Source: Microbacterium sp. zg-Y1090 (GTDB taxonomy: Bacteria; Actinomycetota; Actinomycetes; Actinomycetales; Microbacteriaceae). Taken from it: DNA of 64,000 bases. Under the pieces are notes generated by a model. The model was given only the letters and a program-made list of their open reading frames with translations. It did not search any database and was not told the DNA's origin. Numbering within the stretch: position 1 is the first letter of the stretch; each line of letters opens with the position of its first letter. The translations under genes and the position numbers were made by a program. The stretch lies in NCBI RefSeq assembly GCF_030246945.1, contig NZ_CP126742.1, positions 2,790,001-2,854,000 of the forward strand, in the 5' to 3' direction. Shown here piece after piece: positions 16,661 through 36,267 of the stretch.

Positions 16661-17983
16661 TCAGGTGCGCAGCAGCCCCGCCGCCTGCCGGGCGGCGCCG
16701 AGGGCGACGTACTCGCCGGGCTCCGGGACCTGCACGGGCATGCCGAACACCTGCGGCGCGATCTCGCGCACCGCCTGCGACCGTGCGCCTCCGCCGATCA
16801 GCAGGGCGCGCTCGAGCGGCACGCCGAGGCCGCGCAGCGCGTCGAGGCCGGCGCCGAGCCCGGCGAGCATCCCCTCCACCGCGGCGCGGGCGAGGTTCTC
16901 CCGGGTCGTGGATGCCAGCGTCATGCCGGTCAGCGACGCGGTGGCATCCGGCAGGTTCGGGGTGCGCTCGCCCTCGAAGTACGGCACGAGGGAGAGACCG
17001 CCCGCGCCGGGCGCAGCGGCCAGCGCCAGGCGCGACAGCTCGGCGTGGTCGACCGCGAGGAGCCGGCCGATCGCGTCGAGCACGCGTGAGGCGTTGAGGG
17101 TCGCCACCAGCGGCAGGAACCCGCCGTCGGCGGCGGCGAACCCGGCGACCGTGCCGGTGGGGTCGACGGTGCGCTCGGCACTGACGGCGAAGACGGTGCC
17201 GCTCGTGCCGATCGACACCACCACGTCCCCGGTGCGGGCGCCCGCGCCCAGCGCAGCCGCGGCATTGTCGCCGGCACCGGCGCCCACCAGCCGACCGGCG
17301 GCGTCGGTCACGCTCTCGCGCGGACCGAGCACCCGCGGCAGCACCGCGTCATGGCCGAGCGCGGCGATGAGCAGCTCACGGTCGTACCCGCCGGTCTCGG
17401 GATCCCAGTACCCGGTGCCGGAAGCATCGGAGCGGTCGGTCACCAGTTCGTCCAGCTGCGGCCCCAGCGGCGACTCGCCGGCCGGGCCGAAGCCGCGCAG
17501 CCGCCAGGTGAGCCAGTCGTGCGGCAGCGCCACCGCGGCCACCCGTGCGGCGTTGTCGGGTTCATGGTCGCGCAGCCAGCGGAGCTTGGTGATGGTGAAG
17601 GATGCCACCGGCACGAGCCCCGTGCGCCGGGAGAGCTCCTCCGCGCCGAACTCCGCGATGAGGTCGGCCGCCGCGCCCGCCGAGCGGGTGTCGTTCCACA
17701 GCAGCGCGTCACGGACCACCCGGCCGTCGGCGTCGAGCGCCACCATGCCGTGCTGCTGCCCCCCGACGGCCCACGCGACCACGCCGTCGGACGACGAGGG
17801 GTCGCCGAGACCCCCCGCCGCGGCGATCGCCGCCTGCAGCGCTTCCCACCACGCCGCCGGGTCCACGCTCGTGCCGTCGGGGTGGGCGGCGCGCCCCTCC
17901 CGCACGATGGCGCCCGTCGCGGCATCCGTCACGACCACCTTGCACGACTGCGTCGACGAATCGACACCCATCACCAGTGCCAT
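16661..17983 (-). CDS. xylB: Xylulokinase
   Basis: A FGGY-family sugar kinase of 440 residues that phosphorylates D-xylulose to xylulose 5-phosphate. It begins [18 protein letters not shown], the phosphate-1 loop. [14 protein letters not shown] and [12 protein letters not shown] are xylulokinase signatures, [14 protein letters not shown] is the ATP-binding region and [21 protein letters not shown] is near the C-terminus. ATG 17983 is preferred over the longer frame because the N-terminal beta-strand begins there. It follows xylA in the same direction after an 82-bp gap that holds a strong hairpin. Confidence 0.94.
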
Positions 17984-18021
17984 GTCGGCTCCCTCTCTCG
18001 TTTCGAACCCCGGCGCGGACG

Positions 18022-18053
18022 AGGCGGGGCGCCGCCGCAGCGACGCCCCGCCT
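18022..18053 (-). terminator. Intercistronic hairpin between xylA and xylB
   Basis: AGGCGGGGCG and CGCCCCGCCT form a perfect 10-bp GC stem with a 12-base loop in the xylA-xylB gap. No U-tract is visible on the transcript, so it may be an attenuator or an mRNA 3'-end stabiliser favouring xylA over xylB. Confidence 0.5.
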
Positions 18054-18065
18054 GTCGTCATCGCG

Positions 18066-19253
18066 TCAGCGGGCACCCATCAGGTGCTCGGTGGCCAGCT
18101 GCTGCAGCCTCACGAAGCCGAAGCCCTTGCCGCCGAAGTACACCGACGGGTCGAAGTCCTCGTACGCCGAGCGGTCGGCGAGGAAGTCGTCGTACGACTC
18201 CCCCTCGCCGAGCGTGGGCACCGAGAGCTCGTCGACGCGAGCGGCGGCGAGCGCCTCCTGCACCTCGGGGTCGGCGCGGAAGGCCGCGGCGCGCTCCTTG
18301 AGCAGCAGATAGGTGCGCATGTTCGCAGCCGCCGAGTCCCAGACACCGTTCTCGTCCTCGGTGCGCGAGGGCTTGTAGTCGAAGTGGCGGGGGCCGTCGT
18401 AGGCGGGGACGCCGCCGGGGCCGCCGTTCTCCAGCAGGTCGACCAGCGCGAACGCGTTGTGCAGGTCGCCGTGACCGAAGACGAGGTCCTGGTCGTACTT
18501 GATGCCCCGCTGACCGTTGAGGTCGATGTGGTAGAGCTTGCCGTGGTACAGCGCCTGCGCGATGCCGGCGGCGAAGTTGAGCCCCGCCATCTGCTCGTGG
18601 CCGACCTCGGGGTTCAGCCCCACCAGCTCCGGGCGCTCGAGCGAGTCGATGAACGCCAGCGCGTGACCGAGCGTCGGCAGCAGGATGTCGCCGCGGGGCT
18701 CGTTCGGCTTGGGCTCGATGGCGAACCGGATGTCGTAGCCCTTGTCGGTGACGTAGTCGCCGAGCAGGTTGACGGCTTCGCGGTACCGCTCGAGGGCCGC
18801 ACGGATGTCCTTGGCCGAGTCGTACTCGGCACCCTCGCGGCCACCCCACATGACGAACGTCTTCGCACCGAGCTCGGCACCGAGGTCGAGCTGGCGGAAC
18901 ACCTTGCGCAGGGCGAAGCGCCGCACGGCCCGGTCGTTGGACGTGAAGCCGCCGTCCTTGAACACCGGAGCGGAGAAGAGGTTGGTGGTGACCATCGGCA
19001 CGATCAGGCCGGTATCGGCGAGGGCGCCCTTCAGGCGGTCGATCTGCGTCTGGCGCTCGGCATCGCTGGAGCCGAAGGCGAACAGGTCGTCGTCGTGGAA
19101 GGTGAGGCCGTACGCGCCGAGCTCGGCGAGCTTCTCCACGGCGTGCACGACGTCCAGCGCGGGGCGCGTGGGGCCGCCGAACGGGTCGGCGCCGTTGTAG
19201 CCGATCGTCCAGAGTCCGAACGAGAACTTGTCGTCGCGGGTGGGGGTGGGCAT
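18066..19253 (-). CDS. xylA: Xylose isomerase
   Basis: A cytosolic metal-dependent isomerase of 395 residues converting D-xylose to D-xylulose, of the compact actinobacterial class. Key features are [17 protein letters not shown], the ring-opening His in [21 protein letters not shown], and the metal-ligand Glu/Lys in [16 protein letters not shown]. Further metal-site segments are [15 protein letters not shown] and [23 protein letters not shown] 19253 has AAGGAG just upstream. It is the first gene of xylAB, divergent from the GH30 xylanase, with a promoter and palindromic operator at 19281-19321. Confidence 0.97.
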
Positions 19254-19438: not shown

Positions 19439-21364
19439 GTGAAGAAGACTCTGTCCCTGGTGAGCACCCTCCTCCTCGTCGGCGCGGCGCTCGTCGTCCC
19501 GAGCGCTGCCGCGGCCGATCCCGGCCCCACCGCCATCGACCTGCAGCCACAGAACACGCAGCAGACGATCGACGGATTCGGATACTCGGCGGCGTTCCAG
19601 CGGACGCATCGCCTGAACCTGCTGTCCGACGAGAAGAAGGCCGAGGCCGTCGAACTGCTGCTCGGAGACAGCGGCGTGGATCCGTCCATCCTGCGACTGG
19701 GCATCGGCGCGCAGACCCACGACACGTACGACGTGATGGTCTCCATCCAGCCGGAGGATCCAGGTGGCCCGGACGCGGCACCCGACTACCGGTGGGACGG
19801 CTACGACAACGGCCAGGTCTGGTTCGCGCAGGAGGCCGAGGCGGCCGGGGTCGAGTACATCTACGGCAACGCCTGGAGCGCCCCCGGCTACATGAAGACC
19901 AACGGCATCCCCACCGATGGCGGGGTCCTCTGCGGAGTCCCCGGCACCGACTGCGCGAGCGGGGACTGGCGGGCCGCCTACGCCGACTACCTCGTGGCCT
20001 GGGCGGACTTCTACAAGCAGGAGGGGGTGGAGATCGACGGCCTCGCCTTCACCAACGAGCCGGACTACACGACGTCGTACGAGGCGATGCGGCTGACACC
20101 GGCCCAGGCGGCCGACTTCACCAAGGTGCTCGGCCCTGTCGCCGATGCGGCCGGCTACGACGTGCTGTGCTGCGAGTCGTTCGGCTGGAACCAGGGGAAG
20201 AACTACCACAGCGCCCTGCTGGAGGACGCGGAGGCCTCCCGGTGGGTCGACGTCCTCACGGCGCACTCGTACGCGAGCCGGTCCGACACCGCGTTCGAGA
20301 CCGACAAGTCGCTGTGGATGTCGGAGTGGGCCGCCTCGGTGGCCGGCCTGACCGAATTCAACGCCGACTGGGACGGGCCGACCGGCGCGGGGTCGGACGG
20401 CATCCGCATGGTCGACCACATGATGGACACACTCACCCGCGCCAACGCCACCGGCTATCTCTGGTGGCTGGGGGTGAGCCAGGGCGGGTCGGGGTCGCTC
20501 ATGATCGTGGACGTCGAGAACGACACCTTCACCGTCGGCGCACGGCTGTACGGGATGGCGGCCTTCAGCCGCTTCATCCGCCCGGGCGCGACCCGCTTCG
20601 ACGCGGTCCACGCCGTCGACGGCCTGAAGGTCGCCGCCTTCGACAACGCCGACGGCACGCGCGTCGTGCAGCTGCTCAACACCACCTCGTCTCCGGTGAG
20701 CACCGACATCGACCTGGCGACGCAGCCGCGCGCGTTCGTCAACAGCCAGGAGCACCGGCTGGAGGAGATGGAGGGCATCGCCACGACCGCCGACGGCACC
20801 ACCGCGCTGGCCCTGCCGGCGCGGTCCCTGGTCACGCTGGTCGTCGATCCCGAGGCGCCTTCCGGCGACGGCATCCCGATCGAGGCGACCGTGCCCGAGG
20901 GGCAGGAGCCGGGCACGCTGGCACTGACGGTGGACGAGTACGGCGACCGCGTCGAGCTGAGCGAAGTCCGCAACGCCGGCACCAGCCTGCGGTTCGACGG
21001 CGCGCTCCCCACGGTCACCGTCACCGATTCCCGCACCGACGCGCAGGCGGACGGCGGCGGCTGGCAGGTCACCGGCCAGGTAGGGGACTTCACCGCCGAC
21101 GAAGCCACCGTGGCGTCGTCGCACCTGGGCTGGACGCCGCGCGTGGTCACCCCCAGACCGGGCGTGGCCGCGGGCGGCACCGTGGCGACCGCCCCGCAGG
21201 GCGGCCCCGGGCTCTCCTCCCCCGCGAGGCTGGCCGGCGCCGACTCCGACGGGCGGGCGGGGTCGACGGCGCTGACGGCGGGCCTGCGCCTGGACCTGCC
21301 GGTGGAGACGCCTTCGGGCACCTACCGGGCGACCATGACGCTGTCGCTGTTCCCCGTCGACTGA
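19439..21364 (+). CDS. Secreted GH30 endo-xylanase (probable glucuronoxylanase) with C-terminal module
   Basis: A 641-residue secreted glycoside hydrolase. A signal peptide covers residues 1-26 (cleavage near AAA-ADP). The catalytic barrel runs from about residue 40 to 360, followed by a beta-domain to about 470, as usual in GH30. Signatures are TIDGFGYSAAF, NAWSAPGYMKTNG, FTNEPDYTT (acid/base Glu207) and LWMSEWAAS (nucleophile Glu296). This pattern resembles the glucuronoxylan-specific GH30 enzymes that cut near methylglucuronate branches. Residues 475-641 form a separate beta-rich module nearly identical in layout to the C-terminus of the GH10 enzyme at 27287. GTG 19439 is preceded by AAGGAG. 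Confidence 0.88.
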   Translation: MKKTLSLVSTLLLVGAALVVPSAAAADPGPTAIDLQPQNTQQTIDGFGYSAAFQRTHRLNLLSDEKKAEAVELLLGDSGVDPSILRLGIGAQTHDTYDVMVSIQPEDPGGPDAAPDYRWDGYDNGQVWFAQEAEAAGVEYIYGNAWSAPGYMKTNGIPTDGGVLCGVPGTDCASGDWRAAYADYLVAWADFYKQEGVEIDGLAFTNEPDYTTSYEAMRLTPAQAADFTKVLGPVADAAGYDVLCCESFGWNQGKNYHSALLEDAEASRWVDVLTAHSYASRSDTAFETDKSLWMSEWAASVAGLTEFNADWDGPTGAGSDGIRMVDHMMDTLTRANATGYLWWLGVSQGGSGSLMIVDVENDTFTVGARLYGMAAFSRFIRPGATRFDAVHAVDGLKVAAFDNADGTRVVQLLNTTSSPVSTDIDLATQPRAFVNSQEHRLEEMEGIATTADGTTALALPARSLVTLVVDPEAPSGDGIPIEATVPEGQEPGTLALTVDEYGDRVELSEVRNAGTSLRFDGALPTVTVTDSRTDAQADGGGWQVTGQVGDFTADEATVASSHLGWTPRVVTPRPGVAAGGTVATAPQGGPGLSSPARLAGADSDGRAGSTALTAGLRLDLPVETPSGTYRATMTLSLFPVD

Positions 21365-21409: not shown

Positions 21410-22405
21410 TCACTGCGCGGCGACGGCCGCGGTGGAGTCGCGCACGACGAGCCGCGGCGACAGCTCGCGGTGCGCGCCGGCTTCGTCGCGGGGGCCGTCC
21501 ACGTGCTCGAGCAGCAGACCGACGGCTTCTTCTCCGAACGCCCGCAGATCCGCGCCGACGCTGGTCAGCCGCGGCGACGACAGCTCGGCGACGAAGGTGT
21601 TGTCGAAGCCGACGAGGCTGACGTCCTCGGGCACCCGCAGGCGACGCTCCGACCACTGGGCGAGCAGACCCAGCGCCACCAGGTCGTTGTACGCGATCAC
21701 GGCAGTCGGCGCCTCGGCGAGCGCCGCCTCGGCGGCCGCGCGCCCTCCGTCGGCGTCGGCGGCGAAGCTGCCCACCTCCAGCAGTGTCACTCCGGCATCC
21801 TGCGCCGCCTGCCGCACGCCCTGCACGCGTCGCTGCTGCGACCACGAGCTCACGGGACCGCCGACGTACGCGATGCGGCGGTGCCCCAGGCCGCTCAGGT
21901 GGCCGATGGCCGCCGCGCCACCCGCCCGCTCGTCGATGGTGACGGTGGGCACAGGCAGACCGGCGGCGGTGAGGTCGCGGTTGATGAGCACGCAGCGGAT
22001 GCCGTCGACGGCCTCGGCCAGGCGGGCATCGGGAAGCCGCGACGACGCGAGGATGATGCCGTCGATCTGCGGCCGCAGCGCCGCGATCTCCTCCGCCTCG
22101 ACGTCGGCCTGCTCGGTGGTGTCCACCACGACGAGGCCGTAGCCGCGCGACCGGGCGATGGCCTGTGCCCCCTTGGTGAGGGAGGAGAAGTAGGGGTTCT
22201 CGATGTCGGGCACCACCAGGGCGATGACCCCGGTGCGGCCGCGGCGCAGACTGGCGGCGGCGCGGTTGGGCCGGTAGCCGAGATCGCTGACTGCGGCGAG
22301 CACGCGCTCGCGGGTGTCGGCCGAGACCCGGTGCGGCTCGCGCAGGGTGCGCGACACCGTCGCGATCGAGACGCCGGATCGGGCGGCGACGTCGTGTACG
22401 GTCAC
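21410..22405 (-). CDS. LacI-family transcriptional repressor
   Basis: A 331-residue LacI/GalR regulator. The N-terminal HTH reads VTVHDVAARSGVSIATVSRTLREP, followed by the hinge YRPNRAAASLRRG and the periplasmic-binding-like effector domain from about residue 60 (IALVVPDIENPYFSSLTKGAQ). It is divergent from uxaC and downstream of the convergent GH30 gene. AACGTTT-core sites lie at the promoters of all main xylan operons around it, making it the best candidate for the locus-wide repressor, with a xylo- or aldouronic oligosaccharide as probable inducer (inference). GTG 22405 is chosen; an in-frame TTG lies one codon upstream. Confidence 0.9.
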   Translation of the reverse strand: MTVHDVAARSGVSIATVSRTLREPHRVSADTRERVLAAVSDLGYRPNRAAASLRRGRTGVIALVVPDIENPYFSSLTKGAQAIARSRGYGLVVVDTTEQADVEAEEIAALRPQIDGIILASSRLPDARLAEAVDGIRCVLINRDLTAAGLPVPTVTIDERAGGAAAIGHLSGLGHRRIAYVGGPVSSWSQQRRVQGVRQAAQDAGVTLLEVGSFAADADGGRAAAEAALAEAPTAVIAYNDLVALGLLAQWSERRLRVPEDVSLVGFDNTFVAELSSPRLTSVGADLRAFGEEAVGLLLEHVDGPRDEAGAHRELSPRLVVRDSTAAVAAQ

Positions 22406-22440
22406 CAATTCTCTGAGCCACCTCGTGTCGATCCAGCCGA

Positions 22441-22523: not shown

Positions 22524-24005
22524 ATGACGGTGACGAGCACGATCGGTGTCGACCAACGCCCCTGGACCCTGCACGCCGACCGCGCGCTGCCGGCCGAGCC
22601 GGAGGTGCGCGCCGTGGCGCGGCGCATCCTGGGCGAGACGAGCGCGCTGCCGATCGTCTCGATGCACGGCCACGTCGACGCCGCCCTGCTCGCCGACGAC
22701 GAGGCTTTCCCCGACCCCGCGCGGCTGCTGGTGACGCCCGACCACTACCTCGTGCGCATGCTGGTGTCCCAAGCGACCTCCCCGGGACCGGTGCGCGATG
22801 CGGGCGTGCGCAGTGTCGCCGACCTCGGCGTCGGCGACGACGGCGAGCGCGACCCGCGCGTCATCTGGCGCCGGTTCTGCGCGGGGTGGAGCGCGCTGAG
22901 GGGCACCCCGACGCGGTTCTGGCTCGAGCACGTGCTCGCCGAGGTGTTCCACGCCCCGGCGTCGCCGTCGCCGGAGACCGCCGACGCGCTGTTCGACCAC
23001 CTCGCCGACCGTCTCGCCGAGCCCGCCTTCCGCCCGCGCGCCCTCTTCGAGCGGTTCGGCATCGAGCTGCTCGCCACCACCGACTCCGCCGTCTCGACGC
23101 TCGACGCGCACCGCCGGCTCGGCGAGCAGGGGTGGGGCGAGCGGGTCATCCCGACCTTCCGCCCGGACCCGCTGTTCGAGATCGCCCGCCCCGGCTGGCC
23201 CGCCCTGCTCGACGAGCTGAGCGCGGTCAGCGGCATCGACGCGCATGACTACGACGGCTTCCTGCTGGCGCTGCGCGAGCGCCGGCGCGCCTTCATCCGC
23301 GCCGGCGCCCGCGCCTCGGATCACGGGCATCTGCGCGCCGACACCACCCCTCTGCCCGCCGCCGAGGCGCGCATCCTCTTCGACGTCGCCCGCCGGGGGC
23401 ACTCCGACCCCGCCGCTGCGGCCGCCTTCACGGCGCACATGCTCTTCCAGACCGCCGAGATGGCCGCCGACGACGGTCTCGTGATGCAGCTGCATCCCGG
23501 TGTCGTGCGCGACCACGACCGCGGCGTCGCGGCGCGCTACGGCTCCGACATCGGCTACGACATCCCGGTCGCGACAGAGTTCACGCGCGCGCTGCGGCCG
23601 TTGCTCGAGGCCTTCGGGCACCATCCCGGCTTCCGCATGATCGTGTTCACGGTCGACGAGACGGTCTACTCCCGCGAGCTGGCGCCGCTCGCCGGGGTGT
23701 ACCCCGCCCTGCGTCTCGGGGCGCCCTGGTGGTTCCTGGACACCCCCGACGCCATCCGGCGGTTCCGCGAGGCGACCACCGACACCGCGGGACTGCGCAA
23801 CACGAGCGGATTCGTCGACGACACCCGGGCGTTCTGCTCGATCCCGGCACGGCACGACCTGTCCCGACGGGCGGATGCCGGCTTCCTCGCGCGCCTGGTG
23901 GCCGAGCACCGGCTCGAGTTCGACGAGGCACTCGAGACCGCGGTCGACCTGGCCTACCGGCTGCCGCAGGAGAGCTACCCCCGCCCCGCGGCGGTCTCGG
24001 CATGA
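22524..24005 (+). CDS. uxaC: Glucuronate isomerase
   Basis: A 493-residue uronate isomerase of the amidohydrolase superfamily that converts D-glucuronate to D-fructuronate. Family features include the metal-site [81 protein letters not shown] and the C-terminal [20 protein letters not shown]. It is the first gene of an operon with manD and aguA; its stop overlaps the manD start (ATGA). The promoter carries a LacI-type operator. It acts on glucuronate released by the GH67 enzyme encoded two genes downstream. Confidence 0.95.
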
Positions 24006-25237
24006 CCGCCGCCGTGACGATCCGACTCGTCGAGGTGCTCGTGGCCAGCCCCTCGCGCAACTTCGTCACCCTGCGCATCACGACCGATGACGGGCTGATC
24101 GGCCTCGGCGACGCCACGCTCAACGGCCGGGAGCTCGCCGTGGCGTCGTACCTGCGCGACCACGTCGCGCCGCTGCTGGTCGGCATCGACGCCTCGCGCA
24201 TCGAGGACACCTGGCAGCTGCTGTACCGCTCCGCGTACTGGCGCCGCGGCCCGGTGACGATGTCGGCGATCGCGGCGGTCGACATGGCCCTGTGGGACAT
24301 CGCCGCCCGCCGGGCGGGGGTGCCGCTGTACCAGCTGCTCGGCGGCGCGTCGCGCGACGGCGTGCTCGTGTACGCGCACGCCTCCGGGGGCGATCTCGAG
24401 CAGCTGGGCGACTCCGTACGCGGCCGCCTGGCGGAGGGCTACCGGGCCGTGCGGCTGCAGGTGGCCGTGCCCGGCATGGGGGCGATGTACGGCGTCGGCG
24501 GCGCAGCCGCCCCCGGGCGCTACGCATACGAGCCGGCCAAGCGGGCCGGAATCAGCGTCGAGGAGGGCTGGGATTCCGCCCGTTACCTGCGGTTCCTCCC
24601 CGGCGTGTTCGCCTGGGCGAGGGAGCAGTTCGGCGACGAGCTCATGCTGCTGCACGATGCGCACCACCGGCTGACCCCGATCCAGGCTGCGCGCCTGGGC
24701 CGGGACCTCGAGCCCTACGACCTGTTCTGGCTGGAGGACTGCACTCCGGCCGAGAACCCCGAGGCACTGCGCCTCGTGCGCCGCAGCACCGTCACCCCTC
24801 TGGCGATCGGCGAGGTGATGAACTCCCTCGAGGACCTGCGGGTGCTCATCCAGGAGCAGCTGATCGACTACGTGCGAGCGTCGGTCACGCACACCGGCGG
24901 CATCACGGGCCTGCGCCGCGTCTTCGACTTCGCCGCCCAGTACCAGATCAGGTCCGGCAGTCACGGGCCGACCGACATCTCCCCCGTGGGGATGGCCGCG
25001 GCGCTTCACCTGGACCTCGCGATCCACAACTTCGGCATCCAGGAGTACATGCAGCACCAGCCGCTGGCCGGCGAGGTGTTCCGCACCTCCTACCGGTTCG
25101 CGCACGGCTCGCTGCACCCCGGCGACGCACCGGGGCTGGGCGTGGGGTACGACGACGATGCCGCTGAGCATTTCCCCTACGCGCCGGCGTACCTTCCGGC
25201 AGCACGGCTGGTCGACGGAACCGTGCACGATTGGTGA
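24002..25237 (+). CDS. D-mannonate dehydratase-like enolase-superfamily enzyme, copy 1
   Basis: A 411-residue member of the mandelate racemase/enolase superfamily in the ManD group, which dehydrates D-mannonate to 2-keto-3-deoxygluconate. The capping domain opens with [21 protein letters not shown]. Metal ligands lie in [11 protein letters not shown] (Asp), [13 protein letters not shown] (Glu) and LAIGEVMN (Glu). It is a close paralogue of the gene at 38597 but differs after the third ligand: MNSLED replaces the FNTVWD of copy 2, and the copy 2 sequence looks closer to known ManD proteins. Substrate or efficiency may therefore differ. ATG 24002 overlaps the uxaC stop. Confidence 0.85.
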
Positions 25238-25257
25238 CCTGGATGAAGGAGACGGCG

Positions 25258-27225
25258 ATGACGAGAGTCCACCCGATGTGGCTGACGCAGCAGACGCCGC
25301 TGCGCGGACGCACCCTGCACCTGGCGGGCGAGCACCGACTGCTCGATTCGGTGCGGGCGGATGCCACCGCTCACGGGCTGCGCCCCGTCGACACCGATGA
25401 GGCGGAGATCGCCTTCGTCCCCGCATCGGCTGCCGCGGGCCGGTACGGCTTCGACGACGACATCGCCGACCTCGGGCACGAGGGCTTCGCGATCTCGCGC
25501 CTCGACCCCGAGCGCATCGTGGTGGCCTGCGGCGGCGGGGCTGGGGCGCTCTACGGCTGGTTCCAGCTGCTGCGCGACGCGGTCGCCCCCGGCGATCCCG
25601 CCGTGGTGGCACGGCACGAGCCCGAGCGGGAGCTGCGGATGCTCGACCACTGGGACAACGTCGCGGTGCATCCGGTGATGGGCCAGGTCGAGCGCGGCTA
25701 CGCCGGCGGGTCGATCTTCTTCGCCGACGGCCGGGTGCGCGAGGACCTCTCCCGCGTGGAGCGGTACGGCCGGCTGCTCGCATCGATCGGCATCAACCGC
25801 GTCGCGATCAACAACGTCAACGTGCACGCCCGCGAGGCGCGGCTGCTCACCGACGGCCTGCCCGACGTGGCTCGCATCGCGGCGGCGCTGCGACCGTGGG
25901 GCATCCGCGTGCACCTGTCGGTCAGCTTCGCGGCGCCCATGACGCTCTCCGGCATGCCCTGTGCCGACCCGCTCGATCCCGCCGTGCAGCAGTGGTGGGC
26001 GGCGGCTGCGGCCGAGGTGTACGGCGCGATCCCGGATTTCGGCGGATTCGTCGTCAAGGCCGACTCGGAGGGCCAGCCCGGTCCGTTCGCGTACGGCCGT
26101 GACCACGCCGACGGGGCCAACATGCTCGCCCGCGCTCTGGCCCCGCACGGCGGACTCGTGCACTGGCGCGCCTTCGTGTACGACCACCGGCAGGACTGGC
26201 GCGACCGCAAGACCGACCGCGCCCGCGCCGCGCACGACCATTTCGCCCCGCTGGACGGCAGGTTCGACGACAACGTGCTGCTGCAGGTGAAGTACGGACC
26301 GCTGGATTTCCAGACGCGCGAGCCGGTGTCCCCCGTCATTCCGGCGATGCGGCAGACCCGGGTGACCCTCGAGCTGCAGATCACGCAGGAGTACACCGGC
26401 CATCAGCGCCATGCGGTGTACCTGGCCCCGCAATGGCGGGAGATCCTCGACTTCGCCCCCTTCGGCGACGACGGGCCGCGCATCGCGCAGCTGGCCCGGG
26501 GCGGCATGGCCGCCGTCGCCAACGTCGGTGACGACGCGTACTGGACCGGTCATCCGCTCGCCCAGGCGAATCTCTACGCCTATGGCCGCCTGGCATGGGA
26601 CTCGACGCTGACGGCCGAGGGCATCCTCGACGAGTGGATCGCCCTGACCTTCGGCGACGACGCGGCGGTGCGCCGCGGCATCCACGACGTGCTCGACGAG
26701 TCGTGGCTCACCTACGAGGCGCACACCGCTCCACTGGGGGTCTGCTTCATGGTCAACCCGCAGGGCCACTACGGCCCGTCCGTCGACGGCTACGAGTACT
26801 CGCCCTGGGGCACATACCACTTCGCCGACCGCGACGGGATCGGCGTGGACCGCACCGTGGCGACCGGCACCGGCTTCGCCGGCCAATACCCCGAGCCGTG
26901 GGCGAGCAGGTATGAGTCTCTCGAGACGGTGCCCGACGAGCTGGTGCTCTTCTTCCACCACGTGCCGTACACGCACCGGCTGCGCAGCGGCCGCACGGTG
27001 ATCCAGCACATCTACGACACCCACTTCGATGGCGTCGAGCGGGTCGAGCGGGTGGTGGAGCGGTGGCGCGGGCTCGCCGGCGCCGTCGACGACGATCTGC
27101 ACGCGCGGGTGAGCGAGCGCATGGCCGAGCAGCTGCGTTCCGCTGTGGAGTGGCGCGATCAGATCAACACGTACTTCCTGCGCAAGTCCGGCATCCCCGA
27201 CGAAGCCGGACGCACGGTCCACTGA
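25258..27225 (+). CDS. aguA: GH67 alpha-glucuronidase
   Basis: A 655-residue intracellular glycoside hydrolase (no signal peptide) that removes (4-O-methyl)glucuronate from the non-reducing end of aldouronic acids. The N-terminal domain includes MWLTQQTPLRG and ends near residue 130; the barrel contains INRVAINNVNVHAREARLL, GGFVVKADSEGQPGPF, GRDHADGANMLARALAPHGG and ILLQVKYGPLDFQ-like segments; the C-terminal helical domain includes GTYHFADRDGIGVDRT. GH67 enzymes do not act on internal substituents, which fits a position downstream of xylanase and import. ATG 25258 has GAAGGA seven bases upstream; an in-frame ATG at 25243 is the alternative. Third gene of the uxaC operon. Confidence 0.94.
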   Translation: MTRVHPMWLTQQTPLRGRTLHLAGEHRLLDSVRADATAHGLRPVDTDEAEIAFVPASAAAGRYGFDDDIADLGHEGFAISRLDPERIVVACGGGAGALYGWFQLLRDAVAPGDPAVVARHEPERELRMLDHWDNVAVHPVMGQVERGYAGGSIFFADGRVREDLSRVERYGRLLASIGINRVAINNVNVHAREARLLTDGLPDVARIAAALRPWGIRVHLSVSFAAPMTLSGMPCADPLDPAVQQWWAAAAAEVYGAIPDFGGFVVKADSEGQPGPFAYGRDHADGANMLARALAPHGGLVHWRAFVYDHRQDWRDRKTDRARAAHDHFAPLDGRFDDNVLLQVKYGPLDFQTREPVSPVIPAMRQTRVTLELQITQEYTGHQRHAVYLAPQWREILDFAPFGDDGPRIAQLARGGMAAVANVGDDAYWTGHPLAQANLYAYGRLAWDSTLTAEGILDEWIALTFGDDAAVRRGIHDVLDESWLTYEAHTAPLGVCFMVNPQGHYGPSVDGYEYSPWGTYHFADRDGIGVDRTVATGTGFAGQYPEPWASRYESLETVPDELVLFFHHVPYTHRLRSGRTVIQHIYDTHFDGVERVERVVERWRGLAGAVDDDLHARVSERMAEQLRSAVEWRDQINTYFLRKSGIPDEAGRTVH

Positions 27226-27286: not shown

Positions 27287-29434
27287 TCAGTCCACCGGGA
27301 ACAGCGACACCGTGAGGGTGCCGCGGTAGGTGCCCGGAGCCGTGCCGACGGGCACGTCGAGCACCAGGCCGGCGCTGAGCTGCGTCGACCCGTACCGGCC
27401 GTCGCTGCTCGCGGAGGCCAGACGCTGCGCGGTGGCCAGGCCCGGCCCGTCGCTCAGCGCGGTCGCCACCCATGCACCGGCGGTGACGCCGGGGCGGGGG
27501 GTGAGCACCTTGGGCGTCCAGCCGAGGTGATCGGCGGTCAGCGTGCGCTCACCGGAGACGAGCGAGGTCGACTGGCCGGAGGTCGACCACCCGCCGTCGC
27601 GCGCCTGCTCGTCGTTGCGGGAGTCGGTGACGGTGACCGTCGGCAGCTGTCCGGTGAACCGCAGCCGGTCGCCGGCGTTGCGCGCCTCCTCGAGCGTGAC
27701 CGCGTCGCCGTGGTCGGCGACCGTCAGCGTGAGGGTGCCGGGCTCGGTGGCCTCGGGCACGGTGGCCTCGACCACGATCCCGTCGCCGTCGGCCGCATCG
27801 CGGTCGTACCAGCCCTGCGGGTCGGACACCGCCCACATCGCCAGCTTCTCCGACCAGTCTCCGTTGAGCAGCAACGGGTTGTGCGTCGCACGCCAGCTGC
27901 GCTGGTCGTTCAGGCCCCAGAAGGTGACCCGGTCGATCGCGTCGGCGTACTTCGTGTACACGGAGAAGTACTCCGCGAACCGCTGGGCCTGGATCTCCTC
28001 GAGCTCGGCACGGTGCGAGATCTTGTCGACCCAGTAGGTGAACTCACCCCGCGAGATGCGCTCGCGCACCTCGGGGTCGTTCAGATCCCGGTAGTTCGCC
28101 GCGTTCGACGTCTCGGGCTCCGCGTTCCAGGCCTCCCACACGAACAGGTCGAGTTCGCTGATCGCGACCCGCAGCCCGGCGTCGATGATCTGCTGGATCG
28201 TGGCCTCCACCGATGCCGCGTTCGAGCAGGCGCCCGCCTGCCAGGCCTCGGCATCCTCGTCGACGAGTCCGCCCAGCTGGGTGCGGTCTGCGCAGGCGAA
28301 GGCCGGCGTCTGGCTGATGTAGTTGTGCGACTGCATGCCGATCGTCTCGATCAGCAGGCGGGGGTCCTCGGGGTGCTCGGCGGCATACCGGGCGTTGAGG
28401 TCCTTCGCCATGGCGATCGCGGCGCGACCCTTGCCGGCCGACTGGAACATGTTGAAGTCGTTGTACTGCAGGTTGACCTCGGGGCCGTACTGGCGCGCGA
28501 ACACGAACGCGTCGTAGATGAAGTCGCCGGGGGTCTCCCCCGCGTCGGCGTCGGCACCCTCGGCGTAGACCTTGTACCAGTTCGACTGACCGCCGTTCGG
28601 GCCGCCGCGCAGGAAGTCCTGCCAGCTCTGGGTGGCCGGGTCGAAGGAGTCCAGCCCGTCGACGAACGCCTCGTTGACGACATCCCACGTGGGAACCCGA
28701 CCACTGAAGTGCGTGAGCACCTCCTCGATGTAGCGGCGCATGTTCTCGCGCGCCAGTTCGCGGGTGCCTCCCGTGGTGCCGGAGTTCAGCTTGGGCGGCG
28801 ACTGACCGTGCCACACCAGCACGTGGCCGTGCACGGTGGATCCGCGGGCGATGGTCTCATCGACGAACTGATCGGCCTGACCGAAGTTGAACGTGAAGGC
28901 GCCGGTGGTGTCGTCGATGTTGGCGTTGGGCAGCAGCGACTCCGGCTTCATGGCGTTCTCGGCCGTGATCACCTCGAAGTCGCGCTCCATCCGCGCGGAT
29001 GCCGGCGACCCGGCCTCGTAGGTCTGGGGGCCGGACCAGATGTTGCCCATCTGGAACAGACCGTCGTACACCTCCTTCAACGGACGCGCCTGCGGCCGGA
29101 ACGACGTGTCGATGACGACGTCGGATGCCGGCATGGTGAACGTGTCCAGACGCGCGCGGAGCCAGTCGAGCTGCTCCGACGTCCAGCCACCCCAGACGTT
29201 GCCGTCGGCGGGCGTGGCGCCGAGCTGCACCGTCTCGCCCGGGGCATAGGTGCCGGCGCCCGTGGTCTCCCCGCCGCCGGTGGCGCGGATCTCCACGTCG
29301 TACGTCTCGGCTGCCTGCGCCGGCGTGACGAGCCCGGTCAGCGCCAGCGCGAGCGCGGCCGCCGCAGCGACGCCTCCCGCTGAGCGTCGCCTGCCGCCGT
29401 CGCCTGCGCGAGCACGGAATGGTGAATGTTGCAT
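27287..29434 (-). CDS. Secreted GH10 endo-1,4-beta-xylanase with N-terminal InlB-like repeat and C-terminal module
   Basis: A 715-residue secreted xylanase. Residues 1-42 form a long signal peptide (cleavage near AQA-AE). A short beta-repeat follows (about 44-115; GTYAPGETVQLGATPADG...FTMPASDV), like bacterial InlB-B/Flg_new repeats. The GH10 barrel spans about 120-540 with WDVVNEAFVDG (acid/base Glu255) and AISELDLFVW (nucleophile Glu427). About 166 C-terminal residues match the GH30 module and end in the same SLFPVD. ATG 29434 has GGAAGAGG upstream. A single-gene unit with a LacI-type operator overlapping its -35 box. Confidence 0.93.
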   Translation of the reverse strand: MQHSPFRARAGDGGRRRSAGGVAAAAALALALTGLVTPAQAAETYDVEIRATGGGETTGAGTYAPGETVQLGATPADGNVWGGWTSEQLDWLRARLDTFTMPASDVVIDTSFRPQARPLKEVYDGLFQMGNIWSGPQTYEAGSPASARMERDFEVITAENAMKPESLLPNANIDDTTGAFTFNFGQADQFVDETIARGSTVHGHVLVWHGQSPPKLNSGTTGGTRELARENMRRYIEEVLTHFSGRVPTWDVVNEAFVDGLDSFDPATQSWQDFLRGGPNGGQSNWYKVYAEGADADAGETPGDFIYDAFVFARQYGPEVNLQYNDFNMFQSAGKGRAAIAMAKDLNARYAAEHPEDPRLLIETIGMQSHNYISQTPAFACADRTQLGGLVDEDAEAWQAGACSNAASVEATIQQIIDAGLRVAISELDLFVWEAWNAEPETSNAANYRDLNDPEVRERISRGEFTYWVDKISHRAELEEIQAQRFAEYFSVYTKYADAIDRVTFWGLNDQRSWRATHNPLLLNGDWSEKLAMWAVSDPQGWYDRDAADGDGIVVEATVPEATEPGTLTLTVADHGDAVTLEEARNAGDRLRFTGQLPTVTVTDSRNDEQARDGGWSTSGQSTSLVSGERTLTADHLGWTPKVLTPRPGVTAGAWVATALSDGPGLATAQRLASASSDGRYGSTQLSAGLVLDVPVGTAPGTYRGTLTVSLFPVD

Positions 29435-30296: not shown

Positions 30297-30325
30297 CGCC
30301 TCCATCCTGCCCGGCCGGCCGGCCA

Positions 30326-32425: not shown

Positions 32426-34114
32426 TCAGTTGGCGTCGGCGTACCGCTGCTGGGCGCCGTTGACGAGTTCGAGGTACTGCGGCATGTTCATGCCCTCGAG
32501 CTCGGCGACGTAGGAGTCCCACTCGTCCAGCGAGCGCTGCCCGAGGATGAACGCGGCGGTGTTCTGCCACACGTGGTCCTTCAGCGCCGACTGGTACAGC
32601 GAGACCTGCTCGCGCTCGACCTCGCTCAGCGGGGCGGGCGGGGGCAGCTCCAGCACCTCCTTGGTCGACATCGCCTCGACGAAGTCGATGACCTCGGGGC
32701 GCAGCATCGAACGGTCCAGTTCCACCGTCGAGCCGTGCACGAGCGTCCAGACGCCGTTGGAGAAGCCGTAGTCGGCCTGCAGGTTCTCGGGCGCCTCGGG
32801 GTTCAGACCCATGGCGGTGATGTTCTCGGCGAGCACCCGCGTGCCGTCGGCATCCTTCGTGTAGGTCTCGCCCTCGACGCCCCACTTGGCGAACTCGAGG
32901 CCCTCGTCGGAGTAGTACAGCCAGTCGAGGAACTGCAGCATGGCGAGGAAGTTCTCGCTCTCGGCCGCCTTGGCCGACAGCATGAAGCCGCCGACCGTGC
33001 GCTGCCCGGCCTGGAAGTTGTCACCGGCGGGGCCGGCCGGCACCCGGATCTGCGTCATCTCCACATCGCTGCCGAGCTCGTCGACCGTTGTGCGGTACCG
33101 CACGATCTCCTGGTCGTTCGTGGCGATCGACATGGCGTTGCCCGAGGCGAACTTCTGCACCGCCTGGTCGTCGTCCTGCGTGACCGCCTCGGGGTCCAGC
33201 AGACCCTCTTCGACCAGCGATGCGTAGAACTCGATGAGATCGCGGTACTCGTCGCTCGCCCCGGTGTAGACGAACTCGTCGCCGTTCCAGGTGAGACCCT
33301 CGCCGAAGCCCCAGCCGGCGGACGTGCCGAAGTTGGGCGAGACGAACGACAGCGTCGCCTCGAGCGGACCGTTGGCCGACCACCGGTCGGTCATGGGGTA
33401 CACGTCCGGGTACGCCTCCTTGACGGTGCGCAGCTGGTCGCGCAGCTCATCGAAGGTCGCGGGCTCCAGGCTGAGGCCCAGCTCCTCCCAGACGTCCGAG
33501 CGCACGGCGAACGAATACTCGGCGCGCGGCTCCTCACGGAACCCGGGGAAGACGTAGTACTTGCCGTCCTCCTGGCGCATCTGGTCGAGGTCGGGCTCGA
33601 GGTCCCACTTCTCGACCTTGTCCATGTAGTGGGGCATGTACTGCACGAAGTCGCTGGCGGGCAGGATCGCACCGCCCGAGACGAACGCGACCTCCTGACC
33701 CGGGTAGGTCACCGAGATGATCTCGGGGGCGTCGCCCGCGCCAATCACGAGCGACTTGCGCTGGTCCCACTCCGACAGCGGCGCGCTGACCATGTCGAAC
33801 GTGACGCTCTGCTTCTCCTCCAGCTCCTGGAGGATCAGCCAGTCCTCCTTGAGCGGGTAGTTCGGGTGGTCGCGGTAGAAGAGCCCGAACTCGACCGGCT
33901 CGGTGGCCGAGAAGGTGTCGCCCACGCCGTAGTCCGACATGGCGCCGACGTCCTTACCGGTGAAGTCGAAGTCGCCCTCGCTGTCGCCGGACCCGCCGCC
34001 GCCACCGGCGTCGCATCCGCTCAGGACGAGCGCGCTCGCGGCGATCACCACTCCCGCGTAGAGGGCGCCGCGTCGCACGGGGCGCCGCGTGGCCTCTCGG
34101 ATCTGCTGTGTCAT
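32426..34114 (-). CDS. LplA-type extracellular solute-binding lipoprotein
   Basis: A 562-residue ABC importer binding protein, anchored as a lipoprotein: basic N-terminus, hydrophobic segment and lipobox LVLSGC with Cys34, then a Gly/Ser/Asp linker. The mature part has the two-lobe fold (ILQELEEKQSVTFDMVSAPLSEWDQRKSLVIGAGDAPEII, FAVRSDVWEELGLSLEPATFDEL, AMLQFLDWLYYSDEGLEFAKWG) of long LplA/YtcQ-type proteins. In Paenibacillus, LplA-LplB-YtcP importers serve aldouronates from glucuronoxylan; the GH67/uronate genes here suggest the same ligand (inference). Third gene of its operon, 26 bp after the second permease. Confidence 0.9.
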   Translation of the reverse strand: MTQQIREATRRPVRRGALYAGVVIAASALVLSGCDAGGGGGSGDSEGDFDFTGKDVGAMSDYGVGDTFSATEPVEFGLFYRDHPNYPLKEDWLILQELEEKQSVTFDMVSAPLSEWDQRKSLVIGAGDAPEIISVTYPGQEVAFVSGGAILPASDFVQYMPHYMDKVEKWDLEPDLDQMRQEDGKYYVFPGFREEPRAEYSFAVRSDVWEELGLSLEPATFDELRDQLRTVKEAYPDVYPMTDRWSANGPLEATLSFVSPNFGTSAGWGFGEGLTWNGDEFVYTGASDEYRDLIEFYASLVEEGLLDPEAVTQDDDQAVQKFASGNAMSIATNDQEIVRYRTTVDELGSDVEMTQIRVPAGPAGDNFQAGQRTVGGFMLSAKAAESENFLAMLQFLDWLYYSDEGLEFAKWGVEGETYTKDADGTRVLAENITAMGLNPEAPENLQADYGFSNGVWTLVHGSTVELDRSMLRPEVIDFVEAMSTKEVLELPPPAPLSEVEREQVSLYQSALKDHVWQNTAAFILGQRSLDEWDSYVAELEGMNMPQYLELVNGAQQRYADAN

Positions 34115-34140
34115 GGTCTTCCCTTTCTGAGGTCGAAGCG

Positions 34141-35088
34141 TCACTGCTTCACGGAGCCGAGCATCACGCCCGAGACGAAGTACTTCTGGATGAACGGATA
34201 GAGGCAGACGATCGGCAGCACGGTCAGCAGCATGGTCACGGCCTTGACGTTCGATGCGACCTGGGAGGCCTCGCCGGTGCCTCCCGTGCCGAGCGCCTCG
34301 GTGCCGGTGGCCGCGGCGAGCATGTTGCGCAGGTACACCGTGACCGGATACAGCTCCGCCCTGTCCATATAGAGGAAGGCGGTGAACCACTGGTTCCAGA
34401 ACGAGACCGCGTAGAACAGCACCATGGTCGCGATCACCGCCTTGCTCAGCGGCAGCACGATCTTCCAGAGGATGCCGTACGTGTTCAGGCCATCGATGGC
34501 GGCGGCCTCCTCGAGGTCCTCGGGGAAGTTCTCGAAGAACGCCTTCATCACGAGCAGGTTGAAGACGCTGATGGCATTGGGGATGACGATCGCCCACAGC
34601 GTGTTCTTGAACCCGAGGGTGTTGATGAGGATGTAGTTCGGGATCAGCCCGCCGTTGAAGAACATCGTGAACACGGCCACGCCGATGAAGAACGACCGGC
34701 CCTTGAGGTTCCGCTTCGACAGCGCGTACGCGAACGTCGTGGTGAGGATCATCGCGATGACGGTGGCCACCACGGTGTACAGCACGGTGTTGCCGTAGTT
34801 GCGCCAGAACATCGGGTCGCCCATGACGTACCCGAACGTGGTCACGTTGAATCCGCGCGGGATGAGGTTCACCTGGCCGGAGTTGATGTACGCCTCCGAG
34901 CTGAACGCCTGCGCGATGACGTTGAGGAACGGGTAGAGCGTGACGAAGCAGATCACCACGATCAGGCCCGCGTTGACCATGCGGAACACGGTGTAGCTGC
35001 GGGAGTCCTTGATGCCGCCCTGCACCGCGGGGCGGAACAGCCGGTCGGACATCCGGCGGGGCATGGTGCGGACACTCGAGGTCACCAC
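34141..35088 (-). CDS. Carbohydrate ABC importer permease (YtcP/LplC type)
   Basis: A 315-residue inner-membrane permease of the MalG-like class with six predicted helices. FVTLYPFLNVIAQAFSSEAYI marks the first helix and periplasmic loop, typical of YtcP/LplC. The EAA loop reads EDLEEAAAIDGLNTYGILWKIVLPLSKAV, and the C-terminus is the family-typical YPFIQKYFVSGVMLGSVKQ. The start is a GTG-GTG pair at 35088/35085 that overlaps the stop of the first permease, giving translational coupling. Confidence 0.93.
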   Translation of the reverse strand: MVTSSVRTMPRRMSDRLFRPAVQGGIKDSRSYTVFRMVNAGLIVVICFVTLYPFLNVIAQAFSSEAYINSGQVNLIPRGFNVTTFGYVMGDPMFWRNYGNTVLYTVVATVIAMILTTTFAYALSKRNLKGRSFFIGVAVFTMFFNGGLIPNYILINTLGFKNTLWAIVIPNAISVFNLLVMKAFFENFPEDLEEAAAIDGLNTYGILWKIVLPLSKAVIATMVLFYAVSFWNQWFTAFLYMDRAELYPVTVYLRNMLAAATGTEALGTGGTGEASQVASNVKAVTMLLTVLPIVCLYPFIQKYFVSGVMLGSVKQ

Positions 35089-36092
35089 AGGCTCGTCCCC
35101 ACTGCTCGGCGCGAGATCGCGTTGGCGGTCAGAATCAACGTCAGTCCGATGACGGCCTCGAACAGGCCGATCGCGGTGGCGTAGGAGAAATTGCTCGAGA
35201 TGATGCCGACCCGGTACAGATAGGTCGCGATCACATCAGCGGTCGGATACAGCAGCGGGTTGTACAGCAGCAGGATCTTCTCGAACCCGACGGCCATGAA
35301 CGTGCCGATGTTGAGGATCAGGAGCACGATCATCGTGGGCCGGATGCCGGGCAGGGTCACGTGCCAGATCTGTCGCCACCGGCTGGCGCCGTCGATGCGC
35401 GCCGCCTCGTACAGCTGCGGGTCGATCGTGGTCAGCGCCGCGAGGTAGAGGATGGTGCCCCAGCCCACCGTCTGCCAGATCTCCGATGTGACGTAGATGG
35501 TGGGGAACCACTGCGGCAGCTGCATGAACGGGATCGCGCCGCCGCCGAGCGCCTCGATGCCCTGGTTGATCGAGCCGCGCAGCGCCGTCAGCTGCAGCAC
35601 CATGCCCGCCACGATGACGATCGACATGAAGTGCGGCAGGTACGAGATCGACTGGGCGATGCGCTTGAACCGACGCGAGCGCAGCTCGTTGAACATCAGT
35701 GCCAGCACGATCGGCAGAGGGAAGACGATCACGAGCGACAGTCCGCCGAGCATGAGCGTGTTCCAGAAGGCCCGCCAGAACGTCGGGTCGCTGATGAACA
35801 GCTCGAAGTAGCGCAGGCCGACCCACTCGTCGCCGAACATGCTGCCACCGGGGCGGAAACGCCGGAACGCGATGACGTTGCCCGCCATCGGGAGGTAGCG
35901 GAAGATGAGCAGGAAGAGCAGCGGCAGAAGCAGCAGGGAGTACAGCCGCCAGTCGCGCTTGAGCGCCTTGCGCCACGTGACGCGATGCGTGGGGGTGCGT
36001 GTCGGCTCCCCGCCTCCGCGTTCGCGCTGTTCCTCCTCTTCGGAGTTCAGCTCGATCGCGCCGGCGACGACGACGCTGTTGTTGACGGACAA
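35082..36092 (-). CDS. Carbohydrate ABC importer permease (LplB/YteP type)
   Basis: A 336-residue MalF-like permease, first gene of the importer operon. A charged N-terminal stretch (about residues 10-45) precedes six predicted helices (YSLLLLPLLFLLIFRYLPMAG first). LplB-type features are RYLPMAGNVIAFRRFRPGG and the EAA loop LYEAARIDGASRWRQIWHVTLPGIRP. The chosen start is TTG 36092: the sequence AAGGAGCGCA lies directly before it. Upstream in-frame codons would read back through the promoter. No ATP-binding gene occurs in the operon, so a shared MsmK-like ATPase encoded elsewhere is expected. Confidence 0.9.
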   Translation of the reverse strand: MSVNNSVVVAGAIELNSEEEEQRERGGGEPTRTPTHRVTWRKALKRDWRLYSLLLLPLLFLLIFRYLPMAGNVIAFRRFRPGGSMFGDEWVGLRYFELFISDPTFWRAFWNTLMLGGLSLVIVFPLPIVLALMFNELRSRRFKRIAQSISYLPHFMSIVIVAGMVLQLTALRGSINQGIEALGGGAIPFMQLPQWFPTIYVTSEIWQTVGWGTILYLAALTTIDPQLYEAARIDGASRWRQIWHVTLPGIRPTMIVLLILNIGTFMAVGFEKILLLYNPLLYPTADVIATYLYRVGIISSNFSYATAIGLFEAVIGLTLILTANAISRRAVGTSLW

Positions 36093-36118
36093 TGCGCTCC
36101 TTCGCGTACGGTCATCCG

Positions 36119-36139
36119 GGTGAAAAACGGTTTCGAAAG
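36119..36139. promoter_or_regulatory. Second operator-like element in the importer leader
   Basis: Read on the minus strand, CTTTCGAAACCGTTTTTCAC lies about 20-40 bases downstream of the expected importer transcription start. It contains an imperfect palindrome (GAAACCGTTTTTC) like CcpA/LacI-type sites. It is a candidate auxiliary or catabolite-control site. Confidence 0.4.
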
Positions 36140-36165
36140 GCTGGACTAGCCCCCGGCACACGTTG

Positions 36166-36202
36166 ACGGTAACCTCTGGCGGAGGCGATGTCAACGTTTT
36201 CA
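36166..36202 (-). promoter_or_regulatory. Importer operon promoter with LacI-type operator shared with the esterase promoter
   Basis: On the minus strand TTGACA (36189-36194) and TACCGT (36166-36171) are separated by 17 bases. The plus-strand element TCAACGTTTTCA (36191-36202) overlaps the -35. On the plus strand a TATCGT hexamer at 36206-36211 could be the -10 for the esterase operon, so one operator would control both directions. Confidence 0.65.
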
Positions 36203-36267
36203 TTGTATCGTCCTGGACGTGACCTCCTCCCTCGCACGGGAGGCCCGGACGACGGAAGGAAACCGCG

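Follow-up and report, generated by a model that had tools for sequence, protein, structure and literature searches.

The WxL domain (PF13731 / IPR027994) is a C-terminal beta domain of 160-190 residues known mainly from Bacillota, and more than 91% of 938 known WxL sequences are reported to belong to Firmicutes (PMC9772566). A D-x-R pair, described as hydrogen-bonded (PMC9772566), precedes its first W-x-L motif, its published distal pattern reads Yxxx(L/I/V)TWxL (PMC5817068), and the gene that follows often encodes a DUF916-type protein, the WxL-interacting protein (WxLIP) or CscA, with two beta-sandwich domains (PF06030, WxLIP_PGBD, and PF11797, WxLIP_HBD) and a C-terminal membrane helix. The publications surveyed here on WxL, DUF916 and WxLIP mostly concern lactic acid bacteria and other Bacillota. 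For the csc clusters of Lactobacillus plantarum, a role in carbohydrate use has been proposed in the form of a surface complex for plant carbohydrates, in which CscA supplies DUF916 and a transmembrane anchor and CscB and CscC are WxL proteins (PMC1534035, Siezen 2006). In Paenibacillus sp. JDR-2, a cell-surface GH10 xylanase is reported to free oligosaccharides near the cell, which are imported and processed inside (PMC4765114). Here we analyse a window, the whole stretch of 64,000 nucleotides from Microbacterium sp. zg-Y1090 (NZ_CP126742.1, positions 2,790,001 to 2,854,000), in which a GH30 and a GH10 xylanase end in the same tail of 166 residues, a C-terminal beta domain that, judging from its sequence, is very probably homologous to the Bacillota WxL domain.

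The shared tail and its relation to WxL domains

The two enzyme genes, their tails and the motifs discussed below are located as follows.

19439..21364, + strand: GH30 enzyme gene, 641 residues; PF14587, PF02055 and PF17189 over cut-off; signal peptide by eye; carries the tail
20861..21361, + strand: WxL-like C-terminal module of the GH30 enzyme (BLASTP, genome search, profile match)
21026..21064, + strand: GH30 tail, proximal D-x-R...W motif, corresponding to WxL motif 1 and reading W-Q-V
21317..21349, + strand: GH30 tail, distal motif GTYRATMTLSL, corresponding to YxxxLTWxL with L in place of W
27287..29434, - strand: GH10 enzyme gene, with InlB-type repeat (PF18998), GH10 domain (PF00331) and tail; secreted
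27290..27787, - strand: WxL-like C-terminal module of the GH10 enzyme (BLASTP, genome search, profile match, AlphaFold2 model)
27587..27625, - strand: GH10 tail, proximal D-x-R...W motif, reading W-S-T
27302..27334, - strand: distal motif GTYRGTLTVSL of the GH10 tail, with W replaced by V

BLASTP aligns the two tails with 106 of 166 residues identical (64%), no gaps and an E-value of 5e-71, which bears out the gapless alignment of the last ~166 residues at about 60% identity described in the initial annotation. Both tails run to the stop codon. Their DNA is 69% identical over 498 common bases (70.5, 75.9 and 61.4% at codon positions 1, 2 and 3), and with changes at every codon position the sharing of the tail is therefore old and does not reflect a recent copy. 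The catalytic domains had been regarded as unrelated and of different folds; they do belong to different families, but GH10 and GH30 are both (beta/alpha)8 enzymes of clan GH-A. The argument from different folds nevertheless holds for the tail itself, because a further copy in this genome is attached to an Esterase-family protein (PF00756), which has the alpha/beta-hydrolase fold.

The open reading frame of the GH10 enzyme reaches 29533 through a TTG start, giving 748 residues, but we prefer the ATG at 29434, since the signal peptide fits better there by eye; the residue numbers given earlier for this tail (550-715) imply the same ATG. Pfam searches of the full-length enzymes returned the catalytic parts and the N-terminal InlB-type repeat of the GH10 enzyme and nothing else. 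This repeat, a divergent representative of PF18998 (29093-29302, - strand; residues 78-147 of the 748-residue frame), lies between the signal peptide and the catalytic domain and was not found in the GH30 enzyme. Searched in isolation, neither tail matched a Pfam or NCBIfam family over cut-off. The AlphaFold2 model of the GH10 tail is nearly entirely beta, with a mean pLDDT (predicted local distance difference test) of 96. Many of its best fold matches are pilin domains (CfaE, CfaB, FimA).

The likeness to WxL domains was evaluated with hhalign, using a profile of 165 module sequences (104 after filtering) and a set of 15 Bacillota WxL domains. The two profiles align over nearly their full length (columns 33-181 of 184 with 32-201 of 211) with a probability of 94.3, a P-value of 9.5e-8 and a score of 53.5. 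Reversed profiles gave probabilities of 0.0 and 0.1, 100 column permutations gave at most 1.2 (score 18.6), and unrelated pairs of tail and receptor profiles gave 0.3-0.4. When 89 modules were scanned singly, PF13731 was the commonest family (21 of 89 at E<=1, best 3.8e-5), followed by DUF4402 (PF14352), matched by 19 at the same threshold (best 5.8e-4); Cohesin was matched by one module at 0.12. PF13731 itself detects matches in 36 of 299 genomes of the same family at E<=0.1, seven of them over cut-off; by eye, 23 of its 56 places coincide with module places and several others lie just upstream of PF06030 places, and these overlaps indicate that canonical and variant forms intergrade.

The counterparts of both WxL motifs are strongly conserved. 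D55, R57, W67, G152 and Y154 are invariant in all 165 modules, so placed that the D-x-R pair precedes the first tryptophan as in WxL domains, and the distal strand retains the form Yxxx(L/I/V)Tx(x)L. The actinobacterial tails depart from the Bacillota domains in having L, I or V in place of the second tryptophan (aliphatic in 159 of 165 modules under a slightly relaxed pattern), in a first motif that is mostly W-x-V, and in the turn between R and W, which spans 6 residues, the usual Bacillota value, in 20 modules and 7-12 in the other 145. Length (166 residues) and position are those of a WxL domain, the stop codon following the module after 0-3 residues in all 163 genes. These 163 module genes come from 160 loci, comprising the best match of each of 78 other genomes (80 match; G006 was left out) together with two stretches of this genome, and the 80 best-scoring of 263 loci; because some places occur in both sets, they are not independent cases.

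Receptor-type partner genes and their linkage to tail genes

The genome of the strain (G000) is a single contig (C1) of 3,068,413 bases holding four tail copies. The two outside the window are each followed by a gene of the receptor type.

C1:412221-412712: tail copy 3, at the end of the Esterase-family protein (PF00756)
C1:411050-412069: partner 1, same strand, directly after the esterase tail gene
C1:522231-522743: tail copy 4, a secreted protein standing alone, with ~210 residues counted from the likely ATG
C1:522874-523959: partner 2, same strand, directly after the stand-alone tail gene

The esterase tail is 63% identical to the GH10 tail of the window and the stand-alone tail 41%; a GH43+CBM6 gene lies just upstream of the latter. 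Each of the two 15-kb stretches around the partner genes contains one tail gene (L114, L115), and a third partner was not found in this genome, the sole other search result having an E-value of 3.52.

Partners 1 and 2 are 36% identical to each other, and both are secreted proteins with two beta domains and a C-terminal membrane helix. Partner 2 passes the cut-off of WxLIP_PGBD (28.2 against 27.3 bits), and its model, with a second beta domain and a helix at 350-399, has the two-domain WxLIP fold, its best match in the PDB being the Enterococcus faecium WxL-interacting protein (9i1y/9i25). A profile of the partners aligns with nine Bacillota WxLIPs across the first domain (probability 94.9, P 4.2e-8, score 64.9), compared with 1.6 for reversed profiles and at most 2.6 (score 25.6) for 60 permutations, and WxLIP_PGBD is matched by 58 of 71 partners at E<=0.01. 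Instead of the NQIDKxxxYFDLK motif of WxLIPs, the partners have by eye a GPDGR...LDPG stretch. Hydropathy places a C-terminal transmembrane helix in 130 of 133 partners, and all 130 helices are followed within 12 residues by at least three R/K, with more after the helix than before it. These basic residues fit a stop-transfer anchor in the bacterium's own membrane, and not the insertion into host membranes that has been proposed for the WxLIP helix (PMC10599100).

After WxLIP, the best fold matches of the receptor are largely pilus chaperones (CfaA, CsuC, FimC, Caf1M), and both halves of the solved chaperone-subunit complex 6k73 occur among the fold matches of tail and receptor. On these models, the WxL/WxLIP pair may be distantly related to chaperone-pilin pairs, or convergent with them.

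A partner lies directly downstream, defined as a gap of less than 600 bases between the stop codon of the tail gene and the beginning of the partner's domain, in 130 of the 163 tail genes, a count favoured by the use of one best match per genome; in seven it lies further downstream, in 23 none was seen, and three had too little sequence. Combined with the profile match and the invariant D-x-R...W and G-x-Y residues, this linkage gives substance to the remark in the initial annotation that the tail is somewhat like WxL. The same order is found in regions around WxL matches in lactobacilli and enterococci, where seven of eight are annotated as a WxL gene followed by a DUF916 + DUF3324 gene, and the eighth, with its WxL match unannotated, also has such a gene next. 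Thus the pair of a tail protein gene followed by a WxLIP-type receptor gene is repeatedly present across actinobacteria, as in Bacillota. In plasmid regions of Clavibacter phaseoli and Cellulosimicrobium protaetiae the annotations read "DUF916 domain-containing protein" for the partner and "hypothetical protein" for the tail protein; in a Streptomyces goshikiensis plasmid region the gene before DUF916 is annotated as RICIN domain-containing. The pair on the Clavibacter phaseoli plasmid pCP (52229-63074, L199) is situated among two GH43 genes and sugar ABC permease genes. In Microbacterium helvum, a GH30 tail 67% identical to the GH10 tail of the window has its partner directly downstream (L118).

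The two components also co-occur. The module profile matches 80 of the 299 same-family genomes (39 of 85 genera), and in a sample of 396 genomes from the phylum a broader alignment matches 26 (18 of 236 genera); at least 263 tail loci were obtained from one scan, the best 80 of which include carriers in Cellulomonas, Cellulosimicrobium, Ruania, Microbispora, Nonomuraea, Micromonospora, Actinoplanes, Glycomyces and Rathayibacter. Within the family, 75 genomes have both module and PF06030, five the module only, nine PF06030 only and 210 neither (Fisher P 1e-53, not corrected for phylogeny). A partner missed by PF06030 adjoins the module in four of the five genomes with the module only (G021, G071, G080, G135; L036, L059, L078, L050); the fifth (G277, L100) has no partner in the 1,074 bases past the module. 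The corresponding counts are 22, 4, 20 and 350 for the 396 genomes of the phylum, and 17, 4, 20 and 349 for the 390 outside the family, with P-values again uncorrected for phylogeny. Among six Microbacterium genomes searched, three have both and three neither. Within genomes, tail and partner divergence agree (24 adjacent pairs, 30 comparisons, rho 0.39, with none of 4999 within-genome permutations as high), an agreement that joint duplication can also explain.

Copy number varies. Genome G060 has 12 tails, four of them partner-linked, and G171 and G045 have up to nine tail genes each, mostly small and without an adjacent receptor, with two partner-linked per genome (L038, L039, L230, L232-L236, L239, L241, L242). 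At L102-L113, a second, weaker partner-like gene (28-98 bits) follows the first. The data suggest longer clusters in some Microbacteriaceae.

Several observations weigh against assigning tails and partners to the WxL/WxLIP system. The first W-x-L is literal in 28 of 165 modules, the window copies reading W-S-T and W-Q-V, compared with 14 of 15 Bacillota controls, and the second in none of 165 compared with 12 of 15. Neither window module matches PF13731 in a single-sequence scan, and the highest probability among unrelated profile pairs, that of an actinobacterial module with a partner profile, was 7.9. The module profiles did not retrieve the solved WxL chain 9i25_A, a chain that one Bacillota WxL domain retrieved at a mere E of 5e-4 and another not at all; nor is it among the 50 fold matches listed for the tail model (Foldseek, VIA-align), where a missing row is no evidence. 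Partner 1 gave no PF06030 hit, and the second WxLIP domain, PF11797 (HBD/DUF3324), is not among the 17 families matched by 71 partners at E<=0.01. The GH30 and GH10 genes of the window have no adjacent partner, their downstream neighbours being LacI-type and GH67 genes. In nine genomes chosen for their several copies (for G280, two of five copies were covered), an adjacent partner accompanies 24 of the 54 tail genes and is missing from 28, in two of which a partner lies 1.5-2.1 kb downstream, and another two lack downstream sequence; orphan tails such as the two in the window are therefore common. In view of the missing double W-x-L, we file the tail as a WxL-like sister family and not as a canonical WxL domain. 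The suggestion that the module is perhaps undescribed consequently survives for the window copies, which match no existing model over cut-off, but not for a module without known relatives.

Cargo of the tails and rival explanations

We consider the tail to be probably an actinobacterial WxL-like docking domain, and it is likely, from the sequence comparisons above, that it docks on the WxLIP-type receptor. The most serious rival holds that the tail binds peptidoglycan directly, with the WxLIP-type protein merely stabilising it or not being needed by the enzyme copies. Non-covalent binding of WxL domains to peptidoglycan, and their binding to cells in trans, have been reported (PMC5817068, PMC10599100), and the 28 tail genes without an adjacent partner would be accommodated. 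The near-obligate co-occurrence of tail and partner and the matching of their divergence suggest instead that the partner matters, although joint duplication could yield the same matching. This rival is unlikely in full and partly overlaps with receptor docking. Direct contact of the tail with peptidoglycan, as a component of docking, is given an even chance.

A second rival, that the tail is a carbohydrate-binding module (CBM) targeting the enzymes to xylan or cellulose and not to the cell, is addressed by the cargo. All four copies in this genome are on or near plant-polysaccharide genes (GH10, GH30, Esterase, GH43+CBM6), and in vitro binding to cellulose, in most cases also to xylan, has been reported for small WxL proteins from L. 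brevis and E. faecalis (PMC9026416). W67 is invariant and W90 nearly so in a 12-sequence alignment, and NPCBM_assoc is matched weakly by seven of 89 modules (best 0.0053). However, the families matched at E<=0.001 among 49 non-redundant fused proteins include Esterase and HtaA (four proteins each), alkaline phosphatase and metallophosphatase (three each), S15, ThuA, GDPD, M64 and LPMO_10 (one each), and also Ig-like domains; further scans add GH30, GH97, GH92 and LamG proteins. Such a range, from esterases, GH97, GH92 and LPMO proteins to purple acid and alkaline phosphatases, GDPD, M64 and S15 peptidases and HtaA, argues that the tail is not xylan-specific. In 72 of 163 genes the tail is nearly the whole protein, with fewer than 130 residues ahead of it, and a CBM would not be expected to be linked to a WxLIP-type gene. 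The initial annotation had proposed a profile search as a check, and in Pfam it returned no CBM family at E<=1 for either window tail, nor is there one among the 25 families listed of the 29 that the 89 modules match. A CBM is thus improbable, and of the two roles first put forward, surface anchoring or xylan binding, the former and the WxL-likeness are well supported computationally, and the latter is unsupported as a general role.

That the tail is a maturation or secretion signal cut off on export, leaving no lasting anchor, is highly improbable, its strictly C-terminal position in 163 of 163 genes being set against a confidently folded 166-residue beta domain that also occurs as a near stand-alone protein, and against last 60 residues with LPxTG in 0 of 163 genes and a transmembrane-like stretch in one of 163.

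Predicted surface display and the xylan-use genes of the window

The other components of a glucuronoxylan route are also encoded in the window, among them an MR_MLE-type protein and the products of the following genes.

16661..18076, - strand: FGGY-family sugar kinase (domain scan)
18066..19253, - strand: xylose isomerase-like TIM barrel (domain scan)
21410..22408, - strand: LacI-type regulator, adjoining the GH30 gene
22524..24005, + strand: glucuronate isomerase UxaC (domain scan)
25231..27225, + strand: GH67 alpha-glucuronidase (PF07488/PF07477), between the xylanase genes; no tail
32426..36203, - strand: ABC sugar importer, with the solute-binding domain in the frame 32426-34597 and permeases at 34141-35088 and 35082-36203

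GH67 has no signal peptide by eye and is therefore probably intracellular. A small membrane protein of the DUF624 family (29610-30329, - strand) adjoins a GH42 gene and lies between it and the GH10 gene.

Under receptor docking, the enzymes would be exported and their tails would then bind non-covalently to the extracellular two-domain part of a receptor that its C-terminal helix anchors in the membrane of the bacterium itself, with peptidoglycan probably assisting. For E. faecium, a receptor strand has been predicted to complete the sandwich of the WxL domain (PMC10599100). For the window enzymes, which would act in trans, partner 1 is the predicted receptor, because their tails share 58-62% identity with its neighbouring esterase tail and 32-37% with the tail next to partner 2; we regard its use as somewhat favoured. 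The GH30 and GH10 enzymes, the esterase and the small stand-alone tail protein would thereby be kept at the cell surface, short aldouronates and xylo-oligosaccharides would be released beside the importer, and GH67, UxaC and the xylose pathway of the window would complete their breakdown inside the cell. The parallel with Paenibacillus sp. JDR-2 does not extend to the anchor, as its GH10 xylanase carries an SLH-domain anchor, unlike the WxL-like tail. SLH domains are unrelated to that tail.

The arrangement differs from the csc clusters in that the enzymes themselves are tailed and that often one tail gene stands beside the receptor gene, with orphan tails elsewhere. Fusion to enzymes also sets these tails apart from the large WxL proteins of Bacillota, which are described as mostly adhesin-like (PMC9772566). 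A WxL domain from a lactococcus is reported to display proteins fused to it on cells (PMC6700490). DUF916 genes are reported beside metallophosphatases (PMC12537917), a neighbourhood that fits the tailed phosphatases found here. Neither PMC9772566 nor PMC10599100 contains the stem "actino" in its main text, and we found no description of WxL-like tails on actinobacterial enzymes in the literature on WxL, DUF916 and WxLIP, subscription papers and preprints not being covered.

More tentatively, the tails may represent a general actinobacterial mode of enzyme display, in which one or a few WxLIP-type receptors would serve many enzymes with interchangeable tails, through paired subtypes of receptor and tail. 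Such a display may be functionally like a minimal cellulosome without scaffoldin repeats, with a fit between the modelled partners resembling that of pilus chaperone and subunit. The charges flanking the partner helices bear on the proposal of host-membrane insertion made for WxLIP (PMC10599100). Tails at no fewer than 263 loci would gain a testable role, including the "hypothetical protein" of both annotated regions with an identified tail gene. If the reading of the tail as a WxL-like docking domain is true, the WxL/WxLIP system, which the papers considered here treat as belonging to Bacillota and as serving adhesion, virulence and, as a proposal, the use of plant carbohydrates, would extend to a phylum of soil and plant decomposers that displays enzymes with it.

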